Source of the DNA: an uncultured Prevotella sp.
Lineage (GTDB): Bacteria > Bacteroidota > Bacteroidia > Bacteroidales > Bacteroidaceae
Length of the DNA stretch: 64,000 nucleotides
Reading direction: 5' to 3'
Assembly: GCA_902800365.1 (NCBI GenBank)
Contig: CADCEF010000017.1
Span: forward strand, 24,262 to 88,261
Below, one piece after another: positions 18,443 to 64,000 of this stretch (positions are counted from its first letter, which is position 1; the number at the start of each line of letters is the position of its first letter). The notes beneath the pieces were generated by a model, which saw only the letters and a program-made list of their open reading frames with translations, did not search any database and was not told where the DNA came from. A program made the translations under genes and the position numbers.

Positions 18443-18514
18443 GGTCGATTCATCTAATGGTTAGGATACAAGATTCTCAATCTTGGCATAGGGGTTCGAT
18501 TCCCCTATCGACTA
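18443..18514 (+). tRNA. tRNA-Glu (anticodon CUC), first copy
   Basis: 72 nt. Acceptor GGTCGAT pairs with ATCGACT (one G-T pair); the anticodon stem CAAGA/TCTTG encloses TTCTCAA; the T arm is AGGGG-TTCGATT-CCCCT. CCA is not encoded. The second copy at 18606 is identical. Confidence 0.94.
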
Positions 18515-18605
18515 CAACATCTTTGACATTCTGGTCGATTGAGTCTTCGACTCTTTCTCCCTCGCGACTCGACAATTCAAGCAAGTTTGATTGTTCTCGC
18601 TACTC
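18515..18605 (+). other. spacer between tRNA-Glu copies with a tRNA-like start and hairpin
   Basis: The spacer contains TGGTCGATT at 18531-18539, repeating the 5' end of tRNA-Glu, followed by a GAGTC-TTC-GACTC hairpin. It could be a decayed partial tRNA copy or a processing signal; too little is left to decide. Confidence 0.35.
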
Positions 18606-18677
18606 GGTCGATTCATCTAATGGTTAGGATACAAGATTCTCAATCTTGGCATAGGGGTTCGATTCCCCTATCGACTA
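18606..18677 (+). tRNA. tRNA-Glu (anticodon CUC), second copy
   Basis: Identical to the copy at 18443-18514 over all 72 nt, including the G-T pair in the acceptor stem. It is the last gene of the tRNA operon and a strong terminator follows. Confidence 0.94.
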
Positions 18678-18684
18678 CAAAATA

Positions 18685-46772: not shown

Positions 46773-48359
46773 ATGAAGCTTAATGACATATTTTCCGGCA
46801 ACTATAATGCCGCGGAGTGGGAAGCAAAAGGCTATCAGCTTCCTAAGTTTGACATCAAAGCCGTTCGCGAGAAAACAGCCAAGGAGCCCACATGGGTTCA
46901 CTTCGGCGGCGGAAACATCTTCCGCGCATTCCCCGCTGCTATCCTGAACGACGCTCTCAACACAGGTAAGTACGACCGCGGCGTGATTGTTGCCGAGACC
47001 TTCGACTTCGAGGTCATCGACAAGGCTTACGCCCCTTACAATAATCTCTCGCTCTGCGTCAACCTCTGCTCCGATGGCTCTATCGAGAAGAAGGTCATCG
47101 CCAGCGTAACCGAAGCCCTCAAGGCCGACCCACAGTTCGACGACTGGAACCGCCTGGTTGAAATCTTCAAGAACCCATCGCTGCAGATGATCTCGTTCAC
47201 CATCACCGAGAAGGGCTACACCTTCAACGAGGCCGACTTGGCTCGCGGACTGAAGCCCGTATTCGCTATGGGTAAGGTGTGCGCCCTGCTGCTCGAGCGC
47301 TTCAACGCCGGACAGCTGCCACTCACCGTTCAGAGCATGGACAACTGCTCGCACAATGGCGACAAGGTGAAGGCTGGCGTGATGGCTTATGCCGAGCGCT
47401 GGGTGAACGACGGACTGGTACCTGCCGCATTCCTCGACTACCTGAAGGACGAGCAGAAAATCACCTTCCCTTGGTCGATGATCGACAAGATTACCCCTCG
47501 CCCACACGAGAAGGTAAAAGAGATGCTCGCTGCCGACGGATTTGAGGACAACGACTACATCGAGACCGAGAAGCACACCTTTACCGCTCCGTTCGTGAAC
47601 GCCGAAGAGGTGCAGTATCTCGTCATAGAGGATAACTACACCAACGGTCGCCCACCATTGGATTTGGGTGGCGCCCTCTACACCACGCGCGAAACCGTTG
47701 ATAAGGTAGAGACCATGAAGGTAACCACCTGTCTCAACCCGCTCCACACAGCCATGAGTATCTATGGTTGCATGCTGGGCTTCACACTCATCTCTGCCGA
47801 GATGGCCGACGAGGACCTCTGCAACTTTGTAAAGAAAATTGGCTATATCGAATCAATGCCTGTAGTGGTTGATCCAGGCGTATTGAATCCTTACGAGTTT
47901 ATCGGTGCCGTCATCAAGCGCCGCCTGCCAAACCCATTCATGCCCGACGCTCCTCAGCGCATCGCCATGGATACCAGTCAGAAGCTGCCCATCCGTTTCG
48001 GCGAGACTATCAAGAAGTACATCGCGCGCGGCCTCGACATGAACAACCTCGAGCTTATTCCGCTCACACTGGCTGGCTACGCCCGCTATCTGAAAGGCAT
48101 CAAGGACGATGGTACACCATTCGACTGCTCACCCGACCCCATGCTCGAGGAACTGCAGGCCATCGTAGCCCCACTGCAGATTGGCAAGCCCGATCAGGAT
48201 TGGAGTCCTCTGAAGGCCCTTTACAGCCGCAAGGATGTATTCGGACTCGATTTGTACGAAGCCGGTCTTGGCGAGCAGATTGAAGGAATGGTCAAGGAGC
48301 TGTTCGCAGGCCCAGGAGCCGTTCGTAGCACTCTGCACAAGTACGTTGCAGCCCGCTAA
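46773..48359 (+). CDS. uxuB: fructuronate reductase / mannitol dehydrogenase family oxidoreductase
   Basis: 528 residues. VHFGGGNIFRAF is the NAD-binding opening; SFTITEKGY, MDNCSHNGD, KITPRPHE and TCLNPLHTAM follow the family. Next to uxuA the likely reaction is D-fructuronate to D-mannonate; the alternative tagaturonate reductase is less likely here. Same biased codon use as uxuA. A terminator follows 17 bp after the stop. Confidence 0.9.
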   Translation: MKLNDIFSGNYNAAEWEAKGYQLPKFDIKAVREKTAKEPTWVHFGGGNIFRAFPAAILNDALNTGKYDRGVIVAETFDFEVIDKAYAPYNNLSLCVNLCSDGSIEKKVIASVTEALKADPQFDDWNRLVEIFKNPSLQMISFTITEKGYTFNEADLARGLKPVFAMGKVCALLLERFNAGQLPLTVQSMDNCSHNGDKVKAGVMAYAERWVNDGLVPAAFLDYLKDEQKITFPWSMIDKITPRPHEKVKEMLAADGFEDNDYIETEKHTFTAPFVNAEEVQYLVIEDNYTNGRPPLDLGGALYTTRETVDKVETMKVTTCLNPLHTAMSIYGCMLGFTLISAEMADEDLCNFVKKIGYIESMPVVVDPGVLNPYEFIGAVIKRRLPNPFMPDAPQRIAMDTSQKLPIRFGETIKKYIARGLDMNNLELIPLTLAGYARYLKGIKDDGTPFDCSPDPMLEELQAIVAPLQIGKPDQDWSPLKALYSRKDVFGLDLYEAGLGEQIEGMVKELFAGPGAVRSTLHKYVAAR

Positions 48360-48376
48360 TATTTTGCACAATAAAT

Positions 48377-48412
48377 AACAAAGCCCACCAAATTCGGTGG
48401 GCTTTGTTATTT
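48377..48412. terminator. bidirectional terminator, uxuB / TPR gene
   Basis: AACAAAGCCCACC (48377-48389) and GGTGGGCTTTGTT (48396-48408) form a perfect 13-bp stem, with A/T-rich flanks on both sides. Confidence 0.9.
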
Positions 48413-49080
48413 TATTTACATTTTTCATACCACTCACGGAGTGCTGCGCGGGTTGTGCCTTGCTTTACGGCCTTATCCAGAGCCTCTCGAGCCTCACGTA
48501 TCCTACCTAAATTAAGCAAAATATCCACCTTCGACACAGTAAGTGATGCATCATTCGGCCGCAATCTCAGTGCTTCATCCCAGTCATAAAGCGCAGCATC
48601 ATACTGTTTCAGCTGTGTTTCGTAGGCTGCGCGGGCTGCATAAGCATCGGCGCTGTCGGGAAACATCTGCACGCAGCGATTCAGCTCGTCTACAGCATCG
48701 GCACGGCGGTTAAGCAGCTGCAGAACGCGCGCCAGACCAAGATGAGCCTCAAGATGTTCGGGCTGAATGGCCAGAAAGGCATCATAATCGGCGCGTGCCA
48801 TACTGAACTGACGCAGCTGGGTGTAGCAGTAGGCACGAAAATAAAGAGCCGCCAGATTGCGCTCGTCAAGCTTCAACACCTTACTATATTCCTCAGCAGC
48901 ATAGTCGTACTGCGATAGATTAATATTTGCCTCGGCCTTCTTCAATCGGAGGTCGATATTCTTCGGGTGCAGGTTTATCTGTTCTATCAGAACCGAAACC
49001 GAATCACGCCATTGCTTTGGTGTTTGCGCCGAAGCACAAACTGCCCAGAATAACGCTATTGCTAATACAGATTTACGCAT
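48412..49080 (-). CDS. secreted TPR protein
   Basis: 222 residues: signal peptide ([19 protein letters not shown]) and five TPR-like repeats ([77 protein letters not shown]). Last gene of the leucine operon, overlapping leuB by 8 bases; the link to leucine synthesis is probably only positional. Confidence 0.82.
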
Positions 49081-50134
49081 TCTTGATGTAGTTTACAATC
49101 CACTGCCCTACCTCGCGCGTACCATACTTATCGCCACCCTCGACCTGAATCTCTGGAGTGCGGACGTTGACATCGAGCGATGCCGTAACGGCTTTACGAA
49201 CAAGGGTGCCCTCAGCCTCCAATCCGAAGTGCTCAAGCAGCATAGCGGCCGACAGGATCTGTGCAATAGGATTTGCCAGGTTCTGACCCGCAGCCTGCGG
49301 CCAAGAGCCGTGTACGGGCTCGAAAAGCGGTGTATGCTCGCCCAGCGACGATGATGGCTGCAAACCCATTGAACCAGTAATACAGCTTGTCTCGTCGGTA
49401 AGAATGTCGCCGAAGGTATTCTCCGTAACAATTACGTCGAAATATGTAGGCTCGGTAAGCACGCGCATCGAGGCATTGTCGATAAACATATAATCGGTGG
49501 TAACCTCGGGGTATTGCGACTCCATCTCCTTGGCAATCTGGCGCCACAGGCGACTTGAAGCCAGCACGTTGGCCTTGTCAACAACCGTAAGATGCTTTTT
49601 GCGATTCATCGCCATCTCGAATCCAACCTTAAGAATTCTTTCAATTTCCGGACGGGTATAGATATTGGTGTCATAAGCCTTATCATTATCCTGATATTTC
49701 GCACCAAAATACATACCACCGGTGAGCTCACGAATTACTACGAAGTCGGCTCCGCGCAGAAGTTTCTCCTTCAGTGGCGACTTGTGCAGCAGACAATCGA
49801 AAGTAGCCACAGGGCGAACATTTGCAAAGAGGCCCAACTTCTTTCGCATGGCCAGCAGACCTGTTTCCGGGCGAATTTTAGCGGTAGGATCGTTGTCGAA
49901 CTTCAGCGAGCCAACGGCTGCAAACAGCACGGCATCAGCCTGCATACAAACATCGTGCGTAGCGTCGGGGTAAGGATCGCCCACCTCTTCGATGGCGTGA
50001 GCTCCGCAGATGGCGGGATGGTAAATAAACTCGTGGCCGAATTTTTCTGCTATAGCATCAAGCACAGCCACACCTTGTTTCATAATCTCCGGGCCTATTC
50101 CGTCGCCCTCTAATACGGCAATCTTTAATTTCAT
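49073..50134 (-). CDS. leuB: 3-isopropylmalate dehydrogenase
   Basis: 353 residues. [62 protein letters not shown] (in parts) and [16 protein letters not shown] are present. Oxidises 3-isopropylmalate in leucine synthesis. Overlaps its neighbours by ATGA (upstream) and 8 bases (downstream). Confidence 0.96.
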
Positions 50135-51705
50135 ATTTCGTTTATTTTTTCGTTTTCAATAATGTTCAGCATCTTGAAAGTTGCCTTGATGGCAGCTTCA
50201 GTCTGGTCGGCATCCAGTCCGCGAGTGCGGAGGATTTTTCCGTTGTCGTTCCAGGTTATGACGGTCTGCACAAGTGCATCGGTACGTCCGCCTGGCGGGA
50301 TCGTAACGGCGTAGTTCTGCAGAATGGGGAACGTGCGGTCGAGATACTTCTTGTATATGTATCGCAGCGACTTTACGAAGGCATCGTACTGACCGTCGCC
50401 AGTGGCCGAAGCCTCATACTCCTTGCCATTAATCTCAACCTTGACGTTGGCCCCCGGTTTGAGTCCGTAAGCCGTTGAAACCACGTAACTTACCAGCTTA
50501 ACCTTATCCTCGGGCGCATCGTGTTTCAGCACGTCGCTCACGATGAACGGCAGATCTTCCTGTGTCACAATCTCCTTTTTGTCGCCCAGCTCGGTTATGC
50601 GCTGTGTAACGCGGCGTGTCTGCTCAGGAGTGAGCTCCAAGCCAAGCTCTTCAAGGTTCTTGGCGATGTTGGCCTTACCGCTGTTCTTGCCAAGCGCGTA
50701 CTCACGTCGGCGACCGAATCGTTCTGGAACCAGAGCGTTGCAGTAAAGATTATCTTTCTTGTCGCCATCGGCATGCACACCAGCCACCTGCGTAAACACA
50801 TTATCGCCAATGATGGGCTGATTTGGTGCAACAACTATGCCGCTGTAACTCTCGACTAGGCGAGAGATATCGTTCAACTTGTCCTCGCGGATGTTAGTGC
50901 GGGCGTTGAACTGATCCTTCAGAATCACCTGAACGCTCGACAGTGGTGCATTACCGCATCGCTCGCCAAGTCCGTTCACTGTTACGTGCAGACCTTTGGC
51001 ACCGCTCAGCACGGCAGCCAGCGAGTTAGACACAGCCAGATCGTAGTCGTTATGAGCGTGGAAGTCGAAGTGTGTATCGGCATAGCGCTTAAGCATCTTG
51101 CGGAAGTACTCGATGCACTGCAGCGGATTCATGATACCCAGTGTGTCGGGCAACATAAAGCGGCGGATACCGATGTCACAGAGAGCATCCATCAGTGTAT
51201 AGACATAAGAAGGCGACTCTTTCATGCCGTTGCTCCAGTCTTCGAGATACAGATTTACAGTAATGCCCTTTGAGTGAGCGTATTTCACCTCACGGATGAT
51301 ATCCTCGATGTGCTCCTCAGGCGATTTCTTCAGTTGATGAGTGCAGTGTTTCAGTGAGCCCTTAGCCAGCAGATTCAACGTCTTGCAGCCACACTCGGCA
51401 GCCCAATCAACGCTTTTTCCACCATCAATAAAGCCAAGCACCTCTACCCTTTCAAGCTTGTCGATACGGGCGGCATAGCGGCAAATCATCTTCACCGCAT
51501 CTTTCTCGCCCTCGCTCACTCGTGCCGACGCCACCTCGATACGATCCACATTCAGATCGCTCAGCAGCATGCGCGCTATTATCAGCTTTTCGTGAGGCAG
51601 GAACGACACGCCGCTGGTCTGTTCGCCATCGCGCAGCGTTGAGTCCATTATCTCAACAAAGGGCTGTATGCGCTTGTATTTGTTTACTTGTTCGCTTGTT
51701 CCCAT
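50131..51705 (-). CDS. second isopropylmalate/citramalate synthase-like enzyme (LeuA2/CimA-like)
   Basis: 524 residues. A TIM-barrel acyl-CoA lyase ([49 protein letters not shown]) plus an allosteric C-terminal domain ([27 protein letters not shown] in parts). It belongs to the citramalate/2-isopropylmalate synthase group and lies between leuD and leuB. The operon already holds leuA, so this one may make citramalate for isoleucine; three Ile codons in the leader peptide fit that idea. The ATG at 51705 overlaps leuD by 22 bases. Confidence 0.85.
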
Positions 51706-52280
51706 ACCTCTGTTTTTTCTTTGTTCTGTACTAGGAAATCGATGTCGTCGAGTCCATGCATCAAACAGTGTTTCTTGTATCCGTTGATGTCGAAGTGCTC
51801 GCTTCGGCCGGTAGCCTTGTTGGTTACGGTTTGATTCGGCAGATCAACCTCAACCTCCATCTTCGGGTTGGCCGCGATGCTATCGAAGAGCTCAGCCAAA
51901 AATGCCTCGCTCACCACTACGGGCAGCACAAAGTTGTTAAGCTCGTTGTTCTTGTGAATATCGGCAAAGAACGAGCTGATTACCACGCGGAATCCGTAGC
52001 CTGCGATAGCCCAGGCAGCGTGCTCTCTCGATGAGCCAGAACCGAAGTTCTTTCCTGCCACAAGTATACAGCCCGAGTATTTGGGATTGTTCAGCACAAA
52101 GTCCTTATTTGGTGTACCGTCGGCGTTGTATCGCCAATCGCGAAACAGGTTGTCGCCGAAGAACTTCTCCTCGCGGGTTGTAGCTTTAAGGAATCGGGCT
52201 GGTATTATCTGGTCGGTGTCAACATTCTCCAATGGAAGTGGCACACAAGTTGATGTTATGATGTTGAATTTCTGTTTCAT
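51684..52280 (-). CDS. leuD: 3-isopropylmalate dehydratase small subunit
   Basis: 198 residues, aconitase swivel domain: [19 protein letters not shown] in part, [17 protein letters not shown] and [15 protein letters not shown]. Works with LeuC. ATGA overlap with leuC. Confidence 0.96.
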
Positions 52281-53671
52281 AATAGTTCTCTTGGATCAGT
52301 AATTACACCTGTTATTGCGGCGGCAGCGGCGGTTAGGGGCGATGCCAGAATGGTGCGTGCACCAGGGCCCTGACGACCTTCGAAATTGCGATTCGAGGTA
52401 CTAACGCTAAGCTTGCCTGCAGGAATCTTATCGTCGTTCATCGCCAAACAAGCCGAGCATCCGGGCTGACGTATTTCGAAACCAGCATCCTCAAGAACCT
52501 TGTCTAATCCCTCTTCGCGAATCTGCTTGTCGACAGCCCACGAGCCAGGCACCAGCCAAGCCACCACATCTGGCGACTTATGGCGACCCTTAACAAGATG
52601 GGCAAACGCACGAAAATCCTCGATACGGCCATTGGTGCAAGCACCTAAGAACACGTAATCAACCTTTGTGCCCAGCAGTTTCTGTCCAGCCTCAAAGCCC
52701 ATGTAGTTCAGAGCCTTCTCGAAACCTGCTTGAGGCGAATTGGCGTCTTCGGCATTAGCAGGAATGGCCTCAGTTATACCGATTCCCATACCAGGATTTG
52801 TACCATAGGTTATGCGAGGTTCGATATCGTCAGCATTGAAGGTCAGCTCCTTGTCGAACACGGCATCGTCACCACTCTTCAGCGTCTTCCAGTAAGCCAC
52901 AGCCTTATCCCACTCTTCGCCTTTTGGCGCATACTCGCGACCTTTAAGGTAATTAAAAGTGGTGGTATCAGGAGCCACGAAACCTCCGCGAGCACCCATC
53001 TCTATCGAGAGGTTACACAGCGTCAGTCGGCCCTCCATACTCATTGCCTTTACCGTTGAGCCAGCATACTCCACAAAGTAGCCAGTAGCACCGCTTGTAG
53101 TGAGTTTAGACATCAGATAGAGTGCCACATCCTTTGCCGTAACACCCTTGCCAAGCACACCATTAATCGATATGCGCATCGACTTGGGCTTCTGCTGCAG
53201 AATGCACTGCGATGCCATTACCATCTCTACCTCGCTGGTTCCTATACCAAAAGCTACGGCACCCATAGCACCATGAGTTGACGTGTGCGAATCGCCGCAA
53301 ACTATCGTCATTCCAGGCAGACTCAAACCCTTCTCCGGGCCAACCACGTGGATGATACCGTTATCCTTCGACATCATCCCGTAATGGGTAAGTCCGAACT
53401 CGGCAGCGTTCTTAGCCAGCGCGTCTACCTGCTTCTTCGATACAGGGTCGTCAATTGGTTTGTCCTGATCGTGTGTTGGCGTATTGTGGTCGGGCATGCA
53501 GAATATCTGCTTAGGACGGAAACATTTCAGTCCGCGGGCACGCATGCCATCGAAAGCTTGAGGCGATGTCACCTCATGACAATACAGGCGATCGATGTAT
53601 AGCTGAGTGGGGCCGTCTTCTACCTGCTGTACTACGTGTTTATCCCATATTTTATCAAATAATGTATTCAT
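52277..53671 (-). CDS. leuC: 3-isopropylmalate dehydratase large subunit
   Basis: 464 residues, aconitase family. Cys ligands of the 4Fe-4S cluster are in [14 protein letters not shown] and [24 protein letters not shown] and [10 protein letters not shown] also mark it. ATGA overlap with leuA. Confidence 0.97.
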
Positions 53672-55170
53672 TCTTCTTCCTTCTTAAATTTGTTGATACA
53701 GTCGATATAAGCTTCAACCGAGGCTGTTACGATATCGGTATTGGCGCCGAATCCATAGTACAGACTTCCGTCGTACTCCACCTGCATATGTACCTTACCT
53801 ACATCGTCAGAGCCTTTCGAGATGGCCTGAATAGTGAACTCCTTCAGTGTCATCTGCTTCATAATAATCTTCTTCAGCGCCTTGATAGCCGCATCCACAG
53901 GACCGTTTCCGCTGGCAGCAGCCTCAAATTTCTGCCCGCTGATATCGAGTCCGATAGAAGCAACACTCTTAACGCCCTTACCTGTAGTAACCTGCAGGAA
54001 GTCGAGTCTAACAGCATGAGTATCAGCAGTGTCGGCTCCAGCCAGCATCAGAGCGTCGGCATCGGTAACCTCCTTCTTCTGGTCAGCCAGAACAAGGAAT
54101 TTCTCATAAATCTTATCGAGTTTCTCTTCCGAGAGATCCACGCCGTTAACGTGCAGGCGATGCTTAAGAGCTGCCCTACCGCTTCGTGCGGTCAGCACAA
54201 TGCTGTTATCATCGATACCAACATCTTTTGGGTCTATAATCTCGTATGTTTGAACATTTTTCAGCACACCGTCCTGATGTATTCCGCTTGAGTGCGCAAA
54301 GGCGTTGCGACCCACGATGGCCTTGTTAGGTTGAACGGGCATATTCATCAAGCTCGACACCATTCGGCTGGTAGGATAAATCTTGATAGTATTTATGTTA
54401 GTCTCAATTTCCAGTTGCTTATGACACTTCAGAATCATCGCAATCTCCTCTAGCGATGTATTACCGGCGCGCTCACCTATTCCGTTGATTGTTACCTCAA
54501 CCTGTCGTGCTCCAGCCATCACTCCGCTAAGCGAGTTGGCAGTAGCCATACCCAAATCGTTGTGACAATGGGTAGAAATGATGGCACGATCGATATTATC
54601 TACATGCTCCATCAGATACTTTATCTTGTCGTGATACTCCTCGGGCAGACAGTATCCTGTGGTATCAGGGATGTTTACTACAGTTGCTCCAGCCTTGATA
54701 ACAGCCTCTACAACACGAGCCAGATACTCGTTGTCGGTACGACCGGCATCCTCGCAGTAGAACTCCACATCGTCTACGAAACGCTTGGCGTATTTCGTTG
54801 CAGCAACTGCGCGCTCCAGAATCTCCTCGCGGGTTGAGTTGAATTTATACTGGATGTGCTCGTCGCTTGTGCCGATACCTGTGTGAATACGCTTATGCTT
54901 AGCATACTGCAACGCCTCAAAAGCCACATCGATATCACGTTCTACAGCACGGCTCAGCGCACAGATAACGGGCCATGTAACGGCTTTAGAAATCTCAATT
55001 ACGCTATTAAAGTCACCGGGACTTGAAATAGGGAATCCTGCTTCGATAACGTCTACACCCAACTGCTCAAGAGCCTTAGCCACCTGAATCTTCTCTACGG
55101 TGTTCAACTGGCATCCGGGAACCTGTTCGCCGTCGCGGAGCGTTGTGTCGAAAATAAACAACCTTTCCAT
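53668..55170 (-). CDS. leuA: 2-isopropylmalate synthase
   Basis: 500 residues. [48 protein letters not shown] and HSSGIHQDG are catalytic-domain segments; the C-terminal LeuA regulatory domain binds leucine. First structural gene of the operon, beginning about 50 bp after the attenuator hairpin. Confidence 0.97.
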
Positions 55171-55220
55171 TTTACAATTTTACGATTTAATTATTTTACA
55201 ATTTGACTATTTATTCCATC

Positions 55221-55256
55221 AAAAAAGCCCTTCACACTCGGAAGTGAGAAAGGCTC
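55221..55256 (-). terminator. attenuator (leader terminator) of the leu operon
   Basis: On the minus strand AGCCTTTCTCAC pairs with GTGTGAAGGGCT (one mismatch, one G-T pair) around TTCCGA, followed by six T residues. The left arm and loop overlap TCACTTCCG, which also pairs with the leader peptide coding region (antiterminator). Confidence 0.85.
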
Positions 55257-55309
55257 TTTATAATTTCTGTATCTATATGCTGAACTATATACACACCCTA
55301 TCACTTCCG
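55239..55309 (-). promoter_or_regulatory. antiterminator pairing in the leu leader
   Basis: CGGAAGTGA in the leader RNA (55309-55301) is perfectly complementary over 9 nt to TCACTTCCG (55247-55239), part of the terminator's left arm and loop. The two folds exclude each other. A ribosome stalled on the Leu/Ile codons (4-16) would leave this arm free, and so favour antitermination. Confidence 0.78.
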
Positions 55310-55365
55310 CCTGCCCCAAGCAGTCGAATAATAATTAGGCCGTTAAGTAGATTCAGACTCTTCAT
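55285..55365 (-). CDS. leuL: leu leader peptide (attenuation), 26 codons
   Basis: A 26-residue frame from ATG to TAG. Leu is at positions 4, 6, 7, 10, 15 and 16 and Ile at 11, 12, 13 and 26, so nine of residues 4-16 are Leu or Ile. Codons are CTG, CTA, CTT, CTA, CTG, CTT and ATT x3. It lies 21 nt after the predicted start of transcription and is followed by an attenuator hairpin before leuA. This is the classic leader-peptide design for amino-acid control. It is too short for standard gene finders. Confidence 0.83.
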   Translation of the reverse strand: MKSLNLLNGLIIIRLLGAGGSDRVCI

Positions 55366-55392
55366 ACTTGATCTCAATTTTAATTTCGGCTG

Positions 55393-55424
55393 CAAATTTA
55401 ATCTTTTTCATTGGAATAAACAAA
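55393..55424 (-). promoter_or_regulatory. leu operon promoter
   Basis: TAAATTTG (55400-55393) and TTTG (55424-55421) on the minus strand are exactly 20 bp apart. The start should be near 55386, just before the leader peptide ATG at 55365. Confidence 0.82.
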
Positions 55425-55562
55425 CAATTTGTAACTTTTTTATTAGAAAAACTAACATTTTATCACGTTTCCCTATTTTTATAGGCATAAATCAATATCA
55501 ATTCTTCATACACATATTATATTTTATAGTTATTTTGGTTGCAAATATAAGAAAATTCTTTG

Positions 55563-55570
55563 TATCTTTG
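55563..55570 (+). promoter_or_regulatory. GH25-rlmH -7 box
   Basis: TATCTTTG fits TAnnTTTG, 21 bp before the ATG at 55592; a TTGC lies at 55539-55542, 20 bp upstream. Confidence 0.6.
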
Positions 55571-55591
55571 CATCCGAAAAGTAGTAAATAA

Positions 55592-56911
55592 ATGAAAAAG
55601 GTATTAATATCTATTATATCACCCCTGCTGCTGTTGTCGGCATCCACATACTATCTGCCCCAGCCAACCCACAAAGACATGCAGCTAAACGCCGCCATCA
55701 GAAAAACAATACCCGCCCGCAAAGATACCCTGACAAAGGACACCATACCCGCAGGCCTCGACGACGAATTCAAATATTACTTCGACCGCCACAACGTGAT
55801 GGACGAGGGTTATGAGATGGTTGCAGCATTTGCAAACGGGAAACGACTTGAAATAGAACCCGCCCGCCGACTAACCGTATGGAACGTAGGCACTTGGCGC
55901 AATCGAATCCATGAGGGTACGGCTCTGGCAGTAGATACCGCAGGATATACCATTATTGCGACATTTGATGCCGACACCATCAAAACCGGATTGCGCATCG
56001 ATACCATTGGCACATATCTTGGCGACTTTACAGGCACCACAGCCCACGGCCACGGAGCCTACGTAACCAATGGCAGTTATTTCGAGGGTCACTGGGTTGA
56101 GAATACTCGCGACGGATTCGGCATACAGTTGTTTACTACCGATGGCGAAGAACCGCGACTGCAGGTTGGCGAGTGGAAGAAAAACCGTTTCTGGGGCGAG
56201 CGCATGAAGTACACTTCCGAGCGTATCTACGGTATCGACATTGCCCGCTATCAGCACGGCAAAGGTCGCCACAAATACCCCATCAACTGGAAACAACTTA
56301 GCATCAACTATCTCGGTCGCAAAAGTAATAAGAATGTTCACGGAACAGCCGATTATCCTGTTTCGTTCATATTCATAAAAAGTACCGAGGGCGTAAGCAT
56401 CACAAACAAGTATTATGCCGACGATTATGCCCAGGCACGCAAGCATCATATTCCCATCGGCGCCTACCATTTCTTCTCGCTCAAGAGTTCAGGTGCAGCC
56501 CAGGCTCGACATTTCATAAAGCACACCAAGTTCCTGAAGGGCGACCTTCCTCCAGTGCTCGATGTTGAGCCCAGCGACAAGCAGATAGCTGCAGCTGGCG
56601 GCCCTGAGAAGATGTTCCAGCAGATTCGCATTTGGCTCCGTATGGTCAAGGCTCGTTGTAGGGTTTCACCTATTTTATATATTAACCAGATGTTCATCAA
56701 CAAGTATTTCAGCATGGTTCCCGACATTAAGCGCGACTACGATGTATGGATAGCCCGCTATGGCGAGTATAAACCCGATGTACGACTGGCCTTCTGGCAA
56801 CTAAGCTCCGATGGGCGCGTAAAGGGCATAACGGGTGATGTTGATATCAACGTGTTTAACGGCTATAAGAGTCAGTTCGACGAGTTTGTAGCAAACAAAA
56901 GTATAAAATGA
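55592..56911 (+). CDS. GH25-family lysozyme with MORN-like N-terminal domain
   Basis: 439 residues. An N-terminal signal or anchor segment (MKKVLISIISPLLLLSAST) is followed by a region with MORN-like words (GTYLGDFTGTTAHGHGAYVTNGSYFEGHW in parts) and then, from about residue 210, the GH25 catalytic domain: YGIDIARYQ, FIFIKSTEGVS, IGAYHFFS, PVLDVEPS and YDVWIARYGEY. The DIARYQ Asp and the DVEP Asp/Glu are the acid residues of the family, which cuts the MurNAc-GlcNAc bond of peptidoglycan. Overlaps rlmH by 4 bases. Confidence 0.9.
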   Translation: MKKVLISIISPLLLLSASTYYLPQPTHKDMQLNAAIRKTIPARKDTLTKDTIPAGLDDEFKYYFDRHNVMDEGYEMVAAFANGKRLEIEPARRLTVWNVGTWRNRIHEGTALAVDTAGYTIIATFDADTIKTGLRIDTIGTYLGDFTGTTAHGHGAYVTNGSYFEGHWVENTRDGFGIQLFTTDGEEPRLQVGEWKKNRFWGERMKYTSERIYGIDIARYQHGKGRHKYPINWKQLSINYLGRKSNKNVHGTADYPVSFIFIKSTEGVSITNKYYADDYAQARKHHIPIGAYHFFSLKSSGAAQARHFIKHTKFLKGDLPPVLDVEPSDKQIAAAGGPEKMFQQIRIWLRMVKARCRVSPILYINQMFINKYFSMVPDIKRDYDVWIARYGEYKPDVRLAFWQLSSDGRVKGITGDVDINVFNGYKSQFDEFVANKSIK

Positions 56912-57378
56912 AAACAATACTGATATTGGTTGGCAAGACCACCGACAAACACTTTCAGGCAGGCATCAACGATTATGTTGAGCGCATAGGGCACTATATG
57001 CCCTTCGAGTTGTTCACCATCCCCGAACTGAAGAACACCAAGAGTCTTAGCGAGGAGCAGCAAAAGCAGGCTGAAGGAGATCTGATTCTTAAGCAGATTC
57101 AGCCCAGCGACACCGTTGTACTGCTTGATGAGCACGGAAAGGAGTTCCGCAGCGTTGAGTTTGCCAAATGGCTTGAACAGAAAAGAAATACAGCCCGCCG
57201 ACTGATATTCGTCGTAGGCGGACCGTATGGTTTTTCTCCTGCCGTTTACTCTCGCGCAAACGAACAGATTTCATTATCAAAAATGACGTTCTCGCATCAA
57301 ATGATTCGTCTGGTGTTCACAGAGCAGATCTACCGCGCCTGTACCATCATCAAAGGCGAACCATACCATCACGAGTAA
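56908..57378 (+). CDS. rlmH: 23S rRNA (pseudouridine-1915-N3) methyltransferase RlmH
   Basis: 156 residues of the SPOUT fold: LILVGKTTDKHF, LDEHGKEFRSVEFA, FVVGGPYGFSP and SLSKMTFSHQMIRLVFTEQIYRACTI in parts. It methylates pseudouridine 1915 of helix 69. The stop codon directly abuts the stop of the convergent peptidase gene. Confidence 0.97.
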   Translation: MKTILILVGKTTDKHFQAGINDYVERIGHYMPFELFTIPELKNTKSLSEEQQKQAEGDLILKQIQPSDTVVLLDEHGKEFRSVEFAKWLEQKRNTARRLIFVVGGPYGFSPAVYSRANEQISLSKMTFSHQMIRLVFTEQIYRACTIIKGEPYHHE

Positions 57379-58254
57379 TCAAAGATCGTTATAATTCTGA
57401 ACGGCGAAGGTGCTGGTGCGCATGTCGCCAGTTTCAAAGCCACGCTTTAGCCAACGCTTGCGCTGGTCGCTGGTGCCGTGAGTGAACGACTCGGGCGTAG
57501 CACGACCCTGCGCCTTCTTCTGTAACCAATCATCGCCAATAGCCTTAGCAAGTTCAAGTCCTTTTTCTAAATCACCATACTCCATAGAGTGTTTCATAGC
57601 GTCCTCGTAATGAGCCCACACACCGGCATAGTAATCGGCCAAAAGCTCCAGTCGCACACTAATCTGATTTGCACTTACCTTATCTGTCTGATTCATAGCC
57701 TGATGTGCTTTGTTCAGCGTGCCTGTTAAATATTCTATGTGGTGACCTATCTCATGAGCTATCACATAGGCGTAGGCAAACGTGTTACCCTCAACACCCA
57801 GCTGTCGTTTCATCTGCGTAAAGAACGAAAGGTCAACATATAGCTTCTGGTCGCCAGAGCAGTAGAATGGACCAACGGCAGCTGTAGCCGAACCACAAGC
57901 CGAGTTTACTTGATTAGTAAACAGCACTAGTGTGGGATATTGGTATTCGCCCCAGCCGTTGTCCTGGAAGACCTTTGTCCACACTTCCTCTGTAGATGCC
58001 AGAATCTTCTTGCAGTCAGAGGCCAACTCCTGCTCTTCCTCAGTAAAGTTCTCCTCGCCCACAGTCTCTGTCGGAGCCTGCATCGTCTGCTGCACCACGT
58101 TGTTTACAACATCGCCCACGTTTCCACCCTGTAGGAATGTAAACAGAGCAATAATGATAATACCGCCGATACCACCGATACCAGCCTTGGCACCACCGCT
58201 CAATCCGCGGCGATCCTCAACATTCGAGCTTTCGCGCCTTCCGTCTAATCTCAT
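57379..58254 (-). CDS. neutral zinc metallopeptidase (YpfJ family)
   Basis: 291 residues. An N-terminal Gly-rich helix (GGIGGIIIIALFTFLQGG) crosses the membrane; the zinc motif is HEIGHHIEYL with downstream ELLADYYAGVWAH; SACGSATAAVGPFYC and GTSDQRKRWLKRGFETGDM are typical. The active domain should face the periplasm. The ORF meets rlmH tail to tail with no terminator between. Confidence 0.92.
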   Translation of the reverse strand: MRLDGRRESSNVEDRRGLSGGAKAGIGGIGGIIIIALFTFLQGGNVGDVVNNVVQQTMQAPTETVGEENFTEEEQELASDCKKILASTEEVWTKVFQDNGWGEYQYPTLVLFTNQVNSACGSATAAVGPFYCSGDQKLYVDLSFFTQMKRQLGVEGNTFAYAYVIAHEIGHHIEYLTGTLNKAHQAMNQTDKVSANQISVRLELLADYYAGVWAHYEDAMKHSMEYGDLEKGLELAKAIGDDWLQKKAQGRATPESFTHGTSDQRKRWLKRGFETGDMRTSTFAVQNYNDL

Positions 58255-58269
58255 AGCTTTTAGGTTTTA

Positions 58270-58304
58270 TTATTTAATGTTTAATCTTAAATGTTTAATT
58301 TTTA
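58270..58304 (+). repeat. heptamer spacer upstream of the metallopeptidase gene
   Basis: A run of TTTAATG-TTTAATC-TTAAATG-TTTAATT-TTTAACG words fills the gap between the DUF5715-like gene and the metallopeptidase gene. This is the degenerate form of the TAATGTT heptamer array. Confidence 0.75.
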
Positions 58305-59069
58305 ACGTACCGTCATGTGAAAACATCCTTGCTTAACCTCATATTTAATGTAGCATCGTCCCTGCTCACGCATATCGCGCAGAACCTCCGACAGCACATA
58401 TTTCAGCGAGTCGTTACGTACAGCTCGTCTTGCCGGACCATCAGGATTCTCAACTGTCTCGTAGCGATTGTAGCAGATGTCGAATGTGGTGCCATACAGA
58501 TGGCATGAGTTCTCTGTAGCATTTCCATTATGCCTGCGCAGCTTCTTCACATCGGCCTCCGAGCGTAAAACGCTGGTAACAATAAGTCGGTGCAAGGGCA
58601 CACCTTTTACATACAGACTATCGAAGAAGGCCGTACCTATGTCCTGCAGCAAAACCGCCGCACGAGGAACCAGATATGGAATGCTCGAGTATAACGGATC
58701 TATGTGATAATAAGGATTAGCACCAACATAAACCAGTTCGTTTTTACGCTTCTCAGCATCCTCGCGGTCTTTCACTCGTTTCACGCCCCACTTCATAGCT
58801 GCCTGTAGCTGAACCATCTGAGTATCAGGGAAACAGGCCTTAAAGCTTGGCACAGAATAGATACGATGCTTTTCTGAGAGACTATAGGTGCGGGGTGCGA
58901 TATGAGTGATTTCCTCGCTCTCGGATGAGCTATTGATAACAGACATATCTCTATTTTCTGTCTTCCCACCTCTAGCTTCTGCCACTTGCGGAAAGCACAA
59001 TCGTACCCCTGCGAGTAGCACTACAGCCACTGTAAAACCTATCAAATATTTTTTTTTTGTCAGTTTCAT
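58302..59069 (-). CDS. DUF5715-like membrane-anchored protein with M15-type zinc motif
   Basis: 255 residues. One N-terminal helix (YLIGFTVAVVLLAGVRLCF) leads to a periplasmic domain with VTSVLRSEADVKKLRR, SCHLYGTTFDICYNRY and FHMTV at the end. His-x-x-Gly-x-x-x-Asp in the middle segment and the last His resemble the zinc site of D-Ala-D-Ala carboxypeptidase (M15), so a peptidoglycan role is likely. The exact family is not proven. Confidence 0.65.
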   Translation of the reverse strand: MKLTKKKYLIGFTVAVVLLAGVRLCFPQVAEARGGKTENRDMSVINSSSESEEITHIAPRTYSLSEKHRIYSVPSFKACFPDTQMVQLQAAMKWGVKRVKDREDAEKRKNELVYVGANPYYHIDPLYSSIPYLVPRAAVLLQDIGTAFFDSLYVKGVPLHRLIVTSVLRSEADVKKLRRHNGNATENSCHLYGTTFDICYNRYETVENPDGPARRAVRNDSLKYVLSEVLRDMREQGRCYIKYEVKQGCFHMTVR

Positions 59070-59091
59070 CTAAAAATTTTCTTTTGCGTTG

Positions 59092-59099
59092 CAAAGATA
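59092..59099 (-). promoter_or_regulatory. -7 box of the DUF5715-like/metallopeptidase unit
   Basis: TATCTTTG on the minus strand fits TAnnTTTG and lies 22 bp before the ATG. The nearest TTTG is 25 bp upstream. Confidence 0.58.
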
Positions 59100-59112
59100 C
59101 AAATTATTTTTG

Positions 59113-59120
59113 TAACTTTG
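59113..59120 (+). promoter_or_regulatory. phoH operon -7 box
   Basis: TAACTTTG fits TAnnTTTG; transcription should start near 59127. This rules out the ATG at 59057 and supports the TTG at 59147 as the phoH start. Confidence 0.68.
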
Positions 59121-59146
59121 TGCCCAAATTTAAAAAACTTCAGCAT

Positions 59147-60121
59147 TTGATAGAGAAACATATCGTATTAGAAGACATTGACCCCGTGATATTCTATGGG
59201 GTTGGCAACGGGCACTTACAGATGATTCGCTCGCTATTTCCAAAACTGCGCATCATGGCTCGCGACAACGTAATACGCGTTCTTGGCGACGAAGAGCAGA
59301 TGGCTGCATTTGAAGAGAGTACCGAGAAACTGCGCGCCCACGTACTACGTTTCAACTCACTAGGTGACGAGGATATCCTTGACATTATTAAAGGTAAGCG
59401 CACGCGCGATGACGTACCTGATGGCGTAGTATGTTATTCTATGTCGGGCCGCCCCATCAAGGCGCGCACACCTAATCAGCAGCAACTTATTGAAGCCTAC
59501 AACAAAAACGACATGATTTTTGCCGTTGGACCAGCTGGTACAGGTAAGACATATCTGTCTATAGCCCTCGCTGTAAAGGCACTTAAGGACAAAACCGCAA
59601 AGAAAATAATACTGAGCCGTCCTGCCGTTGAGGCTGGAGAGAAGCTCGGATTCCTTCCTGGCGATATGAAGGAGAAGATTGATCCCTATCTACAACCACT
59701 CTACGATGCACTCGAGGATATGCTGCCACAGGTGAAGCTGCAAGACATGATGGAGAAACACATCATACAAATAGCTCCGCTTGCATTTATGCGCGGTCGC
59801 ACACTTAGCGATGCCGTAGTAATCCTCGACGAAGCTCAGAACACAACTCCCGCCCAGATACGTATGTTCCTTACACGTATGGGTTGGAACACCAAGATGA
59901 TTATCACGGGCGACATGACTCAGATAGACCTGCCTCACTCGCAGAAGAGCGGACTCATCGAAGCTCTGCACATATTAAATAATGTAGAGGGCATCGGCAT
60001 CGTCAATCTCGATCGAGGCGACATCGTACGCCACAAACTCGTAACCCGCATAGTCAATGCCTACGAGGAATTCGACAAGGAGATGAAAGGTGAATTTGAT
60101 AATAACACAATAAAGAGATGA
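59147..60121 (+). CDS. phoH: PhoH-like ATPase, TTG start
   Basis: 324 residues. The TTG at 59147 gives [18 protein letters not shown], the usual N-terminus in this phylum; earlier starts are upstream of the promoter. Walker A is [11 protein letters not shown] and Walker [11 protein letters not shown], with RGRTLSDA and [11 protein letters not shown]. PhoH proteins are RNA-linked ATPases of uncertain function. Overlaps purC by ATGA. Confidence 0.93.
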
Positions 60122-61074
60122 AAGCATTAACAAAGACAGACTTCAAGTTCGAAGGACAGAAGAGCGTTTATCACGGCAAAGTCCGTGACGTTTACAACAT
60201 CAACGACGATCTGATGGTAATGGTTGCCACCGACCGTATTTCGGCATTCGATGTCGTATTGCCAAAGGGAATCCCATTCAAGGGTCAGGTACTCAACCAG
60301 ATTGCAGCTAAGTTCCTTGATGCCACTACCGACATCTGCCCTAACTGGAAGTTGGCCACACCAGATCCAATGGTAACCGTAGGCCTTAAGTGCGAGGGCT
60401 TCCGTGTTGAGATGATCATCCGTTCAATCCTTACTGGTTCAGCTTGGCGTGAGTACAAGAACGGTTGTCGCGAGCTATGCGGCGTTAAACTGCCCGACGG
60501 CATGAAGGAAAACGAGCGTTTCCCAGAGCCTATCATCACACCAACAACCAAGGCCGACGAGGGTCACGACATGAACATCTCTAAGGAAGAGATTATCGCT
60601 CAGGGCATCGTTTCTGCCGAGGACTACGCTATCATGGAGGATTATACCCGCAAGATCTTCGCTCGCGGACAGGAGATTGCCGCAAAGCGCGGACTCATCC
60701 TCGTTGATACCAAGTACGAGTTTGGTAAGCGTGATGGTAAGGTTTACCTTATCGACGAAATCCATACTCCCGACTCAAGCCGCTACTTCTATGCCGAAGG
60801 CTATGAGGAGAAGCTAGCCAAAGGTGAGCCACAGCGCCAGCTTTCGAAAGAGTTTGTACGTCAGTGGCTCATAGAGCATGACTTCATGAACGAGCCCGGA
60901 CAGACCATGCCTGAGATTACGGACGAGTATGCAGAGAGCGTATCCGACCGCTACATCGAGCTATATGAGCACATCGTAGGCGAGAAGTTTGAGCGCGAAC
61001 AGAGCGAAGGCGACATTGCCGAGCGTATCGAGAAAAACGTGAGCGAGTGGCTCTCAGCCTTCAAGAGTCGCTAA
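60118..61074 (+). CDS. purC: phosphoribosylaminoimidazole-succinocarboxamide synthase
   Basis: 318 residues, of the longer purC type: [34 protein letters not shown] and [11 protein letters not shown] are seen. It joins CAIR and Asp in purine synthesis. ATGA overlap with phoH; a heptamer array with its stop codon follows. Confidence 0.97.
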
Positions 61075-61099
61075 TGTTTAATCATTAATGTTTAATGTA
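61072..61099 (+). repeat. heptamer array between purC and menG
   Basis: TAATGTT-TAATCAT-TAATGTT-TAATG, the first TAA being the purC stop codon. It ends just before the menG ATG at 61102. Confidence 0.82.
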
Positions 61100-61101
61100 G
61101 T

Positions 61102-61833
61102 ATGTACGAGCAGGAAAAGATTACCCCATATCATGATGGTGAGAAAGCCTCGCAGGTAGAGCAGATGTTCGACAACATCGCCCCTACCTACGACAAACTC
61201 AACCACCGTCTGTCGTGGGACATCGACAAGGGTTGGCGCCGCAAAGCCATTAGGCAGCTGGCACCCTTCCACCCCAAGTCGCTGCTCGACATTGCAACCG
61301 GCACAGGCGATTTCGCCATACTTTCAGCCCAAATGCTCAAGCCCGAGCGCCTTGTTGGCGCCGACATCAGTGAAGGTATGATGCAGATAGGCCGACAAAA
61401 GGTAGCTGCCCTTGGACTGCAGGACGTTGTTACGTTCGAGAAAGAGGACTGTTTACACCTATCTTATAATAGCGACACCTTCGACGCTGTTACTGCTGCA
61501 TTCGGCATCCGTAACTTTGCCGATCTCGATGCAGGTCTGCGCGAGATGTACAGAGTGCTCAAGCCTGGTGGTCATCTCAGCATCGTAGAGCTTACCTCAC
61601 CCGTAAGTTTCCCTATGAAGCAGTTGTTCCGCATCTATTCGCACACGGTTCTGCCCGTCTACGGCCGTCTCATCTCGCGCGACACAAGCGCCTACTCATA
61701 TCTCACCAAGACCATCGAGGCTTTTCCACAGGGTGAGCGAATGGTCGACATACTGATGAAGGCAGGCTTTGCTGAAGCCTCGTTTCGCCGACTAACATTT
61801 GGCATTTGTACGATGTATTTCGCAACTAAATAA
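61102..61833 (+). CDS. menG: demethylmenaquinone methyltransferase MenG/UbiE
   Basis: 243 residues, SAM methyltransferase: [25 protein letters not shown] in parts, [49 protein letters not shown] in parts. It makes menaquinone, the quinone of this phylum. Next gene follows 11 bp later. Confidence 0.96.
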
Positions 61834-61844
61834 TTACTAAAGAA

Positions 61845-62591
61845 ATGGACAAGTACGGACTTATCGGCTACCCATTGGGTCACTCTTTTTCCATCAGCTA
61901 CTTCAATCAGAAGTTTGCCGATGAGGGCATCAATGCCACGTACGAGAATTTCGAGATTCCGTCGATCGACGACCTTCCCGAAATCATCGACCGCTATCCA
62001 AACCTTCGCGGTCTGAACGTAACCATTCCCTATAAGGAAAAGGTAATTCCCTTCCTCGACAGCATCTCGCCCGAGGCACGCGCTATCGGAGCCGTAAACG
62101 TAATCCGCGTGGTTCATCAAAAGAACAAGACACTGCTCAAGGGCTACAACAGCGATGTTATAGGATTCACCCAGAGCATTGAGCCAATGCTCGACCCAAA
62201 ATGGCACAAAAAGGCGCTTATCCTGGGTACAGGCGGTGCTTCAAAAGCCATCAACTACGGACTCAAGTCATTAGGCATAGAACCTGTGTTTGTGAGTCGT
62301 TATGAGCGCCCTGGCACCATTCAGTATCAGAGTATAACACCCGAGGTGGTTCGCGAGTATAACGTCATCGTAAATTGCACCCCAATGGGCATGTATCCAC
62401 ATACCGACGAGTGCCCGCAGCTGCCTTACGAGGCGATGGACTCACACACCATCCTCTACGACCTTATTTACAACCCCGACCAGACATTGTTTATGCGCAA
62501 TGGAGCAAAATACGGTGCCGAGGTAAAGAACGGTCTAGAGATGCTACTGCTTCAAGCCTTTGCAAGCTGGGAATTCTGGCACGAGCGTTAA
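61845..62591 (+). CDS. aroE: shikimate dehydrogenase
   Basis: 248 residues. YGLIGYPLGHSFS, NVTIPYKEKVIPFLD, GAVNVIR and LGTGGASKAINY are the substrate and NADP segments. It reduces dehydroshikimate in aromatic amino acid synthesis. Slightly shorter than the E. coli enzyme. Confidence 0.95.
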   Translation: MDKYGLIGYPLGHSFSISYFNQKFADEGINATYENFEIPSIDDLPEIIDRYPNLRGLNVTIPYKEKVIPFLDSISPEARAIGAVNVIRVVHQKNKTLLKGYNSDVIGFTQSIEPMLDPKWHKKALILGTGGASKAINYGLKSLGIEPVFVSRYERPGTIQYQSITPEVVREYNVIVNCTPMGMYPHTDECPQLPYEAMDSHTILYDLIYNPDQTLFMRNGAKYGAEVKNGLEMLLLQAFASWEFWHER

Positions 62592-62621
62592 TTTATAATA
62601 GAGATTTTAGAAATAAAAGAT

Positions 62622-63785
62622 ATGGATAATCGTTATATGATGCGTGGTGTTTCGGCCGCGAAGGAAGACGTACACAACGCTATCAAAAACATTGACAAGG
62701 GAATCTTCCCTCAAGCATTCTGCAAAATCATCCCCGACATTCTTGGGGGCGACCCAGAGTATTGCAACATCATGCATGCCGATGGCGCCGGCACAAAGTC
62801 GGCCCTCGCCTACATGTATTGGAAGGAGACTGGCGACCTCTCTGTATGGAAAGGTATCGCTCAGGATGCCATCGTGATGAATACCGACGATCTGCTCTGC
62901 GTGGGTGCAGTCGATAACATTCTCGTTAGCTCTACCATCGGCCGTAACAAGATGCTCATTCCCGGCGAGGTTATCTCTGCCGTTATCAATGGCACCGACG
63001 AGCTGCTCTCTGAGCTCCGCGAGATGGGTATCGGCATATATCCCACCGGTGGCGAGACCGCCGATGTAGGCGACCTGGTTCGCACCATCATCGTGGATAG
63101 CACCGTTACCTGTCGTATGAAGCGCTCCGACGTTATCGACAATGCCAACATCCGCCCTGGCGATGTCATCGTAGGTTTGTCGTCAACAGGTCAGGCCACT
63201 TACGAGAAGCGCTACAATGGCGGTATGGGCTCTAACGGGCTTACCTCAGCCCGTCACGACGTCTTCGCCAAGTATCTGGCCGAGGATTATCCTGAGAGCT
63301 ACGACCACGCCGTGCCTTACGACCTTGTTTACAGCGGCAAGTATAAGCTCACCGATAAGGTTGAAGGTTCGCCCGTTGATGCCGGCCAGCTTGTACTCTC
63401 GCCCACACGCACCTATGCGCCTGTAATAAAGAAGTTACTTGACGAGCTCCGTCCCGAGATTCACGGTATGGTTCACTGCACAGGTGGCGCACAGACCAAG
63501 GTTCTGCACTTTGTAAACGACAATTGTCGCGTAATAAAGGACAACATGTTCCCAGTTCCCCCACTCTTCCGCGCCATCCACGAGTGCTCAGGCACCGATT
63601 GGAAGGAGATGTACCAGGTGTTCAACATGGGTCACCGCATGGAGATCTATGTTCGCCCCGAGGTAGCCGAGAAGGTCATCGAGATAAGCAAGAGTTTCAA
63701 CATCGATGCCCAAGTGGTGGGTCACATCGAAGAAGGCCCCAAGAGCCTTACCATTCGCTCTGAATTCGGAGAATTCAATTACTAA
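62622..63785 (+). CDS. purM: AIR synthase (PurM), Bacteroidetes-type
   Basis: 387 residues, of the PurM/SelD fold: HADGAGTKSALAYMYW, QDAIVMNTDDLLCVGA, GIYPTGGETADVGD, GLSSTGQATYEKRYNGGMGSNG in parts and QVVGHIEEGPKSLTI. It closes FGAM to AIR in purine synthesis. Longer than typical bacterial PurM (about 345). Last gene of the phoH-purC-menG-aroE-purM unit. Confidence 0.93.
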   Translation: MDNRYMMRGVSAAKEDVHNAIKNIDKGIFPQAFCKIIPDILGGDPEYCNIMHADGAGTKSALAYMYWKETGDLSVWKGIAQDAIVMNTDDLLCVGAVDNILVSSTIGRNKMLIPGEVISAVINGTDELLSELREMGIGIYPTGGETADVGDLVRTIIVDSTVTCRMKRSDVIDNANIRPGDVIVGLSSTGQATYEKRYNGGMGSNGLTSARHDVFAKYLAEDYPESYDHAVPYDLVYSGKYKLTDKVEGSPVDAGQLVLSPTRTYAPVIKKLLDELRPEIHGMVHCTGGAQTKVLHFVNDNCRVIKDNMFPVPPLFRAIHECSGTDWKEMYQVFNMGHRMEIYVRPEVAEKVIEISKSFNIDAQVVGHIEEGPKSLTIRSEFGEFNY

Positions 63786-63794
63786 ACATAAAAA

Positions 63795-63824
63795 AGAGAG
63801 GCTCTTTTCAGAGCCTCTTTTTTT
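63795..63824 (+). terminator. terminator of the phoH-purM operon
   Basis: AGAGGCTC (63797-63804) and GAGCCTCT (63811-63818) pair around TTTTCA, then T residues to 63824. Confidence 0.88.
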
Positions 63825-64000
63825 GTTTCACAGATGGTGGCTATAATAAAAAATTGTCTTAGCCTGAAATACGTTGACTCCTGCCAAACCTTTTAAAAGT
63901 CAAAAAGAGTTATGAGAAAAGGTCAACGTTTCCAGTACGAAGTCCACTAACCCGGGAAAAGAGACAACAAAAGCAGGAAAGCAGACAACCTAATCAGAGA
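63825..64000. other. non-coding window end with a short inverted repeat
   Basis: No gene is supported. CCTGAAATACGTTGAC (63863-63878) and GTCAACGTTTCCAG (63922-63935) are imperfect inverted repeats about 44 bp apart; a 12-codon frame (MRKGQRFQYEVH) lies across the right arm. It may be the edge of a repeat or mobile element beyond the window. Confidence 0.35.

Follow-up and report, generated by a model that had tools for sequence, protein, structure and literature searches.

The minus strand of the window, that is, the whole stretch of 64,000 nucleotides that was analysed, carries at 55424-55221 what is very probably a classical ribosome-mediated transcription attenuator for the operon leuA-leuC-leuD-cimA-leuB. 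Judged from the DNA alone, the features of such a device appear to be in place: a frame rich in codons for the products of the pathway, a terminator between the promoter and leuA, an antiterminator and a protector hairpin. A sequence-only reading had proposed that this site holds, in the right order, all the parts needed for control by ribosome stalling. Each part that it named was found where it had been placed, and the combination is unique in a scan of the window; its list, however, lacked a third hairpin, the protector 1:2. The parts and their order, together with the conservation, covariation and codon choice set out below, were obtained from the sequence and its comparison with relatives.

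The promoter consists of a -33 box, TTTG (55421-55424), and a -7 box, TAAATTTG (55393-55400), which has the form TAnnTTTG and lies 27 nt 5' of the leader ATG, the spacer between the two being 20 nt; this assignment leans on the consensus of Bacteroides-type promoters. Both boxes, at a spacing of 18-22 nt and within 90 nt of the leader ATG, are present in 22 of the 33 curated leaders described below, whereas 0.5% of 90-nt pieces drawn at random from the window have them, and TAnnTTTG by itself in 28 of the 33 as against 3.3% of random pieces. The frame that follows, MKSLNLLNGLIIIRLLGAGGSDRVCI, has 26 codons and a stop (55365-55285; ATG at 55365, TAG at 55285). Its control codons 4-16, CTG AAT CTA CTT AAC GGC CTA ATT ATT ATT CGA CTG CTT (55318-55356), specify Leu or Ile in nine of thirteen positions, the count that the earlier reading had given, and CTA makes up 6% of the Leu codons in the 11 window genes that were counted.

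Overlapping the control codons is segment 1, CGACTGC (55320-55326), which is identified by covariation as the 5' arm of the protector hairpin 1:2; the 3' arm of this hairpin, GCAGGCG (55308-55314), emerges from the alignment fold and from covariation, and the hairpin as a whole stands upstream of the antiterminator. Segment 2, CGGAAGTGA (55309-55301), forms the 5' arm of the antiterminator and is exactly complementary over its nine nucleotides, as had been claimed, to segment 3, TCACTTCCG (55247-55239), which is at once the 3' arm of the antiterminator and the upper left arm of the terminator hairpin. The intrinsic terminator hairpin 3:4 (55222-55259) has a stability of -19.6 kcal/mol (z -5.15) that none of 200 shuffles equals, runs into a tract of six T (55221-55226) and ends 51 nt before the ATG of leuA. 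In the fold of the entire leader, 1:2 and 3:4 occur together (-48.3, z -2.66), with 3 of 200 shuffles equally stable. In this species segment 2 ends 13 nt short of the stop codon, such that a terminating ribosome would cover it only in part; in several other leaders segment 2 lies at or across the stop codon. It may be added that AGGGT (55295-55299) could, according to the nascent fold, lengthen the antiterminator by pairing with GCCTT (55250-55254) at the base of the left arm of the terminator, a pairing that is largely kept in the first 13 rows (Prevotella-type) of an alignment of 21 leaders and mostly lost in the other eight.

To assess the uniqueness of the site, both strands of the 64-kb window were scanned for frames that start with ATG, code for 12-40 amino acids and have at least 7 Leu/Ile in 13, in combination with a T run preceded by a hairpin at least as stable as -12 kcal/mol. 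Only the 55424-55221 site was returned, and relaxing the threshold to 6 Leu/Ile adds three sites, with complementarities of 5, 5 and 8 nt. A consensus scan of 47000-64000 for promoters and terminators was uninformative, giving 21 promoter-like places against 19.6 expected and 16 terminator-like places against 15.4; the leader hairpin is absent from its list, as the scan demands an uninterrupted stem and that of the leader is broken by an internal mismatch. The upstream neighbour (55592-56911) is encoded divergently, on the plus strand, and therefore the leader hairpin ends no other gene of the minus strand. The 439-residue product of this neighbour has no NCBIfam match, and parts of it may resemble a glycoside hydrolase 25 muramidase.

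Downstream, and likewise on the minus strand, stand leuA (2-isopropylmalate synthase, 53668-55170; TIGR00973, 672 bits), leuC (52277-53671; TIGR00170, 633 bits), leuD (51684-52280; TIGR00171, 187 bits) and leuB (49073-50134; TIGR00169, 416 bits), all of them above the NCBIfam cut-offs, and to this extent the operon leuACD-leuA2-leuB of the sequence-only reading holds. The gene there called leuA2 (50131-51705), on the other hand, resembles CimA more than LeuA. Its best NCBIfam model is CimA NF042433, at 623.5 bits and so under the cut-off of 950, the best isopropylmalate synthase model reaches 374.5 bits, also under its cut-off, and the best relative of solved structure is the Leptospira citramalate synthase 3ble (E 1.2e-116). 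The product is probably, therefore, an (R)-citramalate synthase, with a predicted activity in the isoleucine pathway. In the established pathway, citramalate synthase together with LeuC, LeuD and LeuB makes 2-ketobutyrate for isoleucine. In this regard, the Ile codons of a leu leader become intelligible, since an enzyme of this kind working with LeuCDB would supply isoleucine, such that the operon would serve both amino acids and both would be sensed; conversely, these codons are a functional clue to the gene called leuA2. At all ten loci where cimA was found the leader peptide has Leu and Ile, and the leader of L066, which is without cimA, has Leu only. A cut frame for a threonine ammonia-lyase (ilvA-like) lies downstream at L058, and L062 and L065 have Ile in the leader peptide with neither cimA nor an ilvA-like gene in view; the proposal that Ile codons are confined to the leaders of operons with cimA is thus supported no more than in part.

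The comparison with relatives drew on LeuA sought in 40 of them and on 80 loci fetched from named genomes. Among the loci several come from one and the same genome (L001 and L111 are a case in point), and two, L021 and L065, carry the same leader. After curation, 33 of 104 upstream stretches have a Leu/Ile-rich frame and then a terminator-like hairpin, the frames having been picked by their content of Leu and Ile. An automatic search had flagged 33 stretches, from which L077 and L101, both from outside the Bacteroidales, were judged false and dropped; the frame flagged in L009 was wrong, and L009, L011 and L047 were added by hand. Included in the set are Prevotella, Bacteroides, Phocaeicola, Tannerella, Paludibacteraceae, Prolixibacteraceae, Ancylomarina and other Bacteroidales, and no leader was accepted among the stretches from Flavobacteria, Cytophagales or other phyla. 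The T tract counts at least five in 30 of the 33 leaders and fewer than five in L009, L011 and L047.

A covariance model (R1) was built from 21 of the 33 curated leaders and run on 150 genomes of the genus, where it found 86 sites in 79 genomes under a match filter of the stricter kind, which loses weak matches; all 79 genomes carry leuA, and genomes of the genus without leuA gave no R1 match. Of these sites, 79 (in 78 genomes) lie on the same strand as, and 19-127 nt (median 49) upstream of, a LeuA match, and the remainder are four opposite-strand overlaps of leuA sites, one contig end, one site before a solo cimA-like gene and one before pheA. Since the sequence-only reading had taken the absence of any such leader from close relatives as grounds for giving up its claim, it is relevant that the claim came through this check: the leader precedes leuA in 78 of the 111 genomes of the genus that have this gene (111 of the 150), it recurs in other Bacteroidales families, and its pairing segments are conserved and covary. 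In the other 33 of the 111 (ca 30%) no leader was matched, and the upstream region, read in 22 of these 33, held no visible attenuator. Leu/Ile-rich frames at 96 leuA loci amount to 85 distinct peptides, 83 of which have at least two Leu and at least two Ile; many of the frames at these 96 loci were picked by Leu/Ile content, which is not so for the 33 order-wide leuA leaders.

The RNA structure was followed through the alignment of 21 leaders, in which RNAalifold finds 19 pairs, nine of them with two-sided changes in at least one sequence, and some of the latter fall within the terminator 3:4. Covariation is clearest in the protector 1:2 (CGACUGC with GCxGxCG), where the score is 0.325 as against 0.185 in shuffles, none of 500 of which reaches it, 80% of cells are paired and five of the seven pairs are changed on both sides somewhere. 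For the antiterminator 2:3, 83.4% of cells are paired, as against 33-55.5% when the segments are slid along one another; its covariation among these 21 close leaders is modest (0.107 as against 0.071, reached by 9 of 500 shuffles) and its two-sided pairs are no more than in shuffles (2 as against 2.0). The fit of segment 2 to its own terminator was also compared with dinucleotide shuffles, which it beats in the window leader at p = 0.009 and at p < 0.05 in 24 of the 33 leaders, nine missing p 0.05. When the terminators were permuted among the 33 leaders, none of 10000 permutations reached the observed summed fit to segment 2, although in five of the 33 (L009, L021, L059, L065 and L066) unlike terminators suit segment 2 at least as well as the own one does. 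Instances of such pairing are found in L054 of the Prolixibacteraceae, where GAGAATGG pairs with CCATTCTC, and in L052, where GGGTGAGA pairs with TCTCACCC. Moreover, the motif GGAAGTG, present in 19 leaders, is read as -GS- in 13 and in another frame, close to or at the end of the peptide, in six (L005, L008, L009, L034, L045 and L047), from which it follows that what is conserved there is the RNA.

From these structures we infer stalling, its kinetics, read-through and a response to amino acids. RNA polymerase would start about 20 nt before the leader ATG, with a ribosome trailing it through the leader frame. With charged Leu- and Ile-tRNA in ample supply, the ribosome would reach the stop region, where it would lie partly over segment 2, and the 3:4 terminator would form. 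With either tRNA in short supply, it would stall on codons 4-16 and mask segment 1, such that segments 2 and 3 would pair ahead of the synthesis of segment 4 and transcription would enter the operon. Were the leader not translated at all, 1:2 and 3:4 would form together and transcription would end.

This course of events was modelled in silico by folding nascent RNA truncated after the left arm of the terminator, with a ribosome footprint imposed on chosen codons. In 32 of the 33 leaders a ribosome on Leu/Ile codons is predicted to make the antiterminator likelier than a ribosome at the stop codon does (means 0.66 and 0.26), L045 being the sole leader to go the wrong way. For the window leader, placing the A site at codons 7, 10, 11, 12, 13 and 15 gives a p23 of 0.89-0.99, and placing it at codon 16 one of no more than 0.52. 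The full window leader with a ribosome on codon 12 would at equilibrium prefer the terminator (p34 0.92, p23 0.07). In other words, equilibrium favours the terminator even when the ribosome is stalled, and necessarily, therefore, the switch would have to be kinetic. Even with no ribosome on it, the nascent window RNA prefers 2:3 (p23 0.98) and 1:2 partly coexists with this pairing (p12 0.62), such that the strength of the block that 1:2 imposes on 2:3 is uncertain in this leader.

The codons of such leaders follow the product of the genes downstream. Run on 295 genomes of the order, again with the stricter filter, R1 gave 95 matches in 71 genomes. The next gene was read at 50 of the 95 (29 taken automatically and 21 weaker ones chosen by hand, with L225 left out and L211 having no ATG frame) and is leuA in 33 cases, by blastp, and ilvD in 17, of which four were checked with NCBIfam and the others called by N-terminal sequence. 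The ilvD leaders carry runs of Val, as in MNRNTSINLSLLDIISVVVVPSRA and MKLLNTVLVVVVVVVLKNIE. Within core residues 4-17, Val accounts for 4 of 282 Leu, Ile and Val residues in the 33 leuA leaders and for 44 of 141 in 15 distinct ilvD leaders (Fisher p 3e-19, a value that ignores relatedness), in peptides that were not chosen by composition; across all 85 leuA peptides the figure is 7 of 694. Two of the ilvD genes are preceded by two attenuator-like leaders in tandem, in L217 (G365:C68, 23721-23866 and 23937-24066) and in L219 (G255:C25, 18248-18391 and 18407-18545), each leader having its own Ile/Val/Leu-rich peptide.

A cimA-like gene apart from leuA has a leader of its own in G063 (L141, G063:C122, 4648-4784, minus strand), whose peptide, MMQSTSQHIIISIIIRQPIVAGSV, contains seven Ile, two Val and no Leu. 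It is a single positive: 15 upstream stretches read for Ile-only leaders (14 of cimA and the one of leuA in G063) held no cimA leader, about half of the 14 cimA stretches following an apparent leuD frame and hence not belonging to solo genes, and when 30 relatives of G063 were searched, matches came only from leuA and ilvD places already known. As for pheA, the only leader matched by R1 is in G118, where a Phe/Tyr peptide precedes the gene. When the regions upstream of pheA were read in 24 genomes of the genus, however, the 19 with pheA all had a Phe/Tyr peptide, the window's own genome included, and 16 of the 19 a hairpin of -13 kcal/mol or better. In the window's own genome (L246, G000:C2, ~2230-2072, minus strand) the leader is Phe/Tyr-rich, MLNAWFYGFYFYFAENCEAGSCV, and is followed by a terminator before pheA, with GTGAAGCGGG complementary to CCCGCTTCAC. 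As a rough negative control, no attenuator was seen upstream of ilvD (16 loci), hisG (15), trpE (15) or thrA (12 readable of 18) in the genus. Among the ilvD loci, L235 has a frame with 7 Leu/Ile/Val in 12, but its hairpin is weak and stands before the frame; the trpE test is weak, since in the window's genome trpE stands close behind another gene.

Against this background the other explanations can be weighed. It is very unlikely that the switch is read by a riboswitch, a T-box-like element or an RNA-binding protein, with the frame as a by-product. The strong conservation of nucleotides in CGACTGC and GGAAGTGA would suit such a switch, as would the retention of GGAAGTG in two frames (13 and 6 of 19 leaders), but the Leu/Ile frame is kept in distant families while the nucleotides change, and the codons of the leader change with the product of the next gene. 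Neither the window nor any of ten related loci, moreover, matches an Rfam leader family (Leu_leader and others) at gathering score, the T-box model has no match, and with the E limit raised to 10 the stretch 55150-55500 gives no more than four weak matches to unrelated families, none of them plausible. The view that the leader senses translation in general, by way of slow ribosomes or coupling, and not Leu and Ile in particular, is slightly less probable again. Segment 2 would be set free by a stall at most positions of the frame, and the folding is blind to which codon matters, yet the peptides are specific to their pathways, Val being far commoner before ilvD than before leuA, Phe/Tyr occurring before pheA and Ile without Leu before the solo cimA.

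There is little more than a nominal chance that the hairpin is a constitutive partial terminator beside a chance frame, with no regulation at all: the ca 30% of leuA genes in the genus that have no matched leader would accord with this, whereas the uniqueness of the site in the window, its conservation and covariation and the divergent orientation of the upstream gene speak against it. Just as scant is the chance of translational control, whereby alternative folds would open or close the start site of leuA with transcription not being ended; a leader of that kind has been proposed for leuA in Actinobacteria (the LEU element, PMC1262725), but the position of the present hairpin, 51 nt short of the leuA ATG and with six T after it, and a T tract of at least five in 30 of the 33 leaders, are at odds with it. 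The element described in the available text of that paper is a pseudoknot whose base stem pairs Leu codons with the Shine-Dalgarno sequence of leuA, and a terminator is not mentioned in that text.

The ribosome-mediated attenuator has clear counterparts in E. coli leuL and ilvL, the leader-peptide attenuators of the leu and ilv operons in Enterobacteriaceae, with which it shares a short frame of control codons, a protector, an antiterminator and a terminator with T tract directly before the operon. It differs from them in matching no Rfam leader and in placing Leu and Ile codons together before leuA-CD-cimA-leuB. Among the matches listed in the literature searched, which left most subscription papers, supplements and preprints outside, there is no leu attenuator in Bacteroidales; broad in silico surveys from the groups of Lyubetsky and Gelfand may extend to Bacteroidetes.

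The leader matches, then, no Rfam family as searched, and hints of leaders like it in Bacteroidota are already in print. The sequence-only reading had called a clear case in this phylum of interest, and such a case was found, but attenuation had been suspected there before: the consulted text on Flavobacterium psychrophilum speaks of 'strong clues' of leader-peptide attenuation upstream of amino-acid biosynthesis operons (PMC9723704), and that on Bacteroides thetaiotaomicron describes sORFs that lie in long 5' UTRs and recall leaders of this kind (PMC7366714). Both concern the same phylum, but in the text available neither names a leu operon, a peptide or a structure (PMC9723704, PMC7366714), and the flavobacterial leuA upstream regions in our set of 104 stretches have no such leader. 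Bacteroidetes are also covered by a study of reinitiation and leader genes whose subject, in the portion available, is distance to the gene and not leu (PMC4833913). A likeness in another phylum is an Ile/Leu attenuator before ilvD of Staphylococcus aureus, which, in the available text, has the support of mutants, a peptide with three consecutive Ile codons as well as Leu codons, and a terminator downstream (PMC5794164). It differs in standing before ilvD of an ilv-leu operon and in that its antiterminator is proposed there to pair with the poly-U of the terminator (PMC5794164), whereas here the partner is the left arm of the stem.

The leader, then, is real and well supported by comparison, its mechanism appears to be orthodox, and its interest would lie in its breadth, in the dual reading of Leu and Ile tied to a cimA-like gene and in its re-coded relatives. 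A wider proposal, to which we would give somewhat less than an even chance, is that these leaders make up an undescribed Bacteroidales attenuator family in which one RNA layout has been re-coded, with Leu and Ile before leuA, Val, Leu and Ile before ilvD, Ile without Leu before a solo cimA and, in parallel, Phe and Tyr before pheA, the control of leu by isoleucine following citramalate synthase. That R1, trained on leu leaders, finds those of ilvD and cimA argues for a single re-coded family; that it found one pheA leader and missed the others argues against a single origin. Under this proposal, the tandem attenuators that two genomes have in front of ilvD could work as an AND gate. The comparison also predicts the amino acid, the codons and the base pairs for the leu, ilv and phe operons of Bacteroidales from gut and rumen.

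Elsewhere in the window, two tRNA-Glu genes of the same anticodon (ctc) and equal Rfam score lie 90 bp apart at 18443-18515 and 18606-18678, and a tRNA-Ser gene adjoins this pair.
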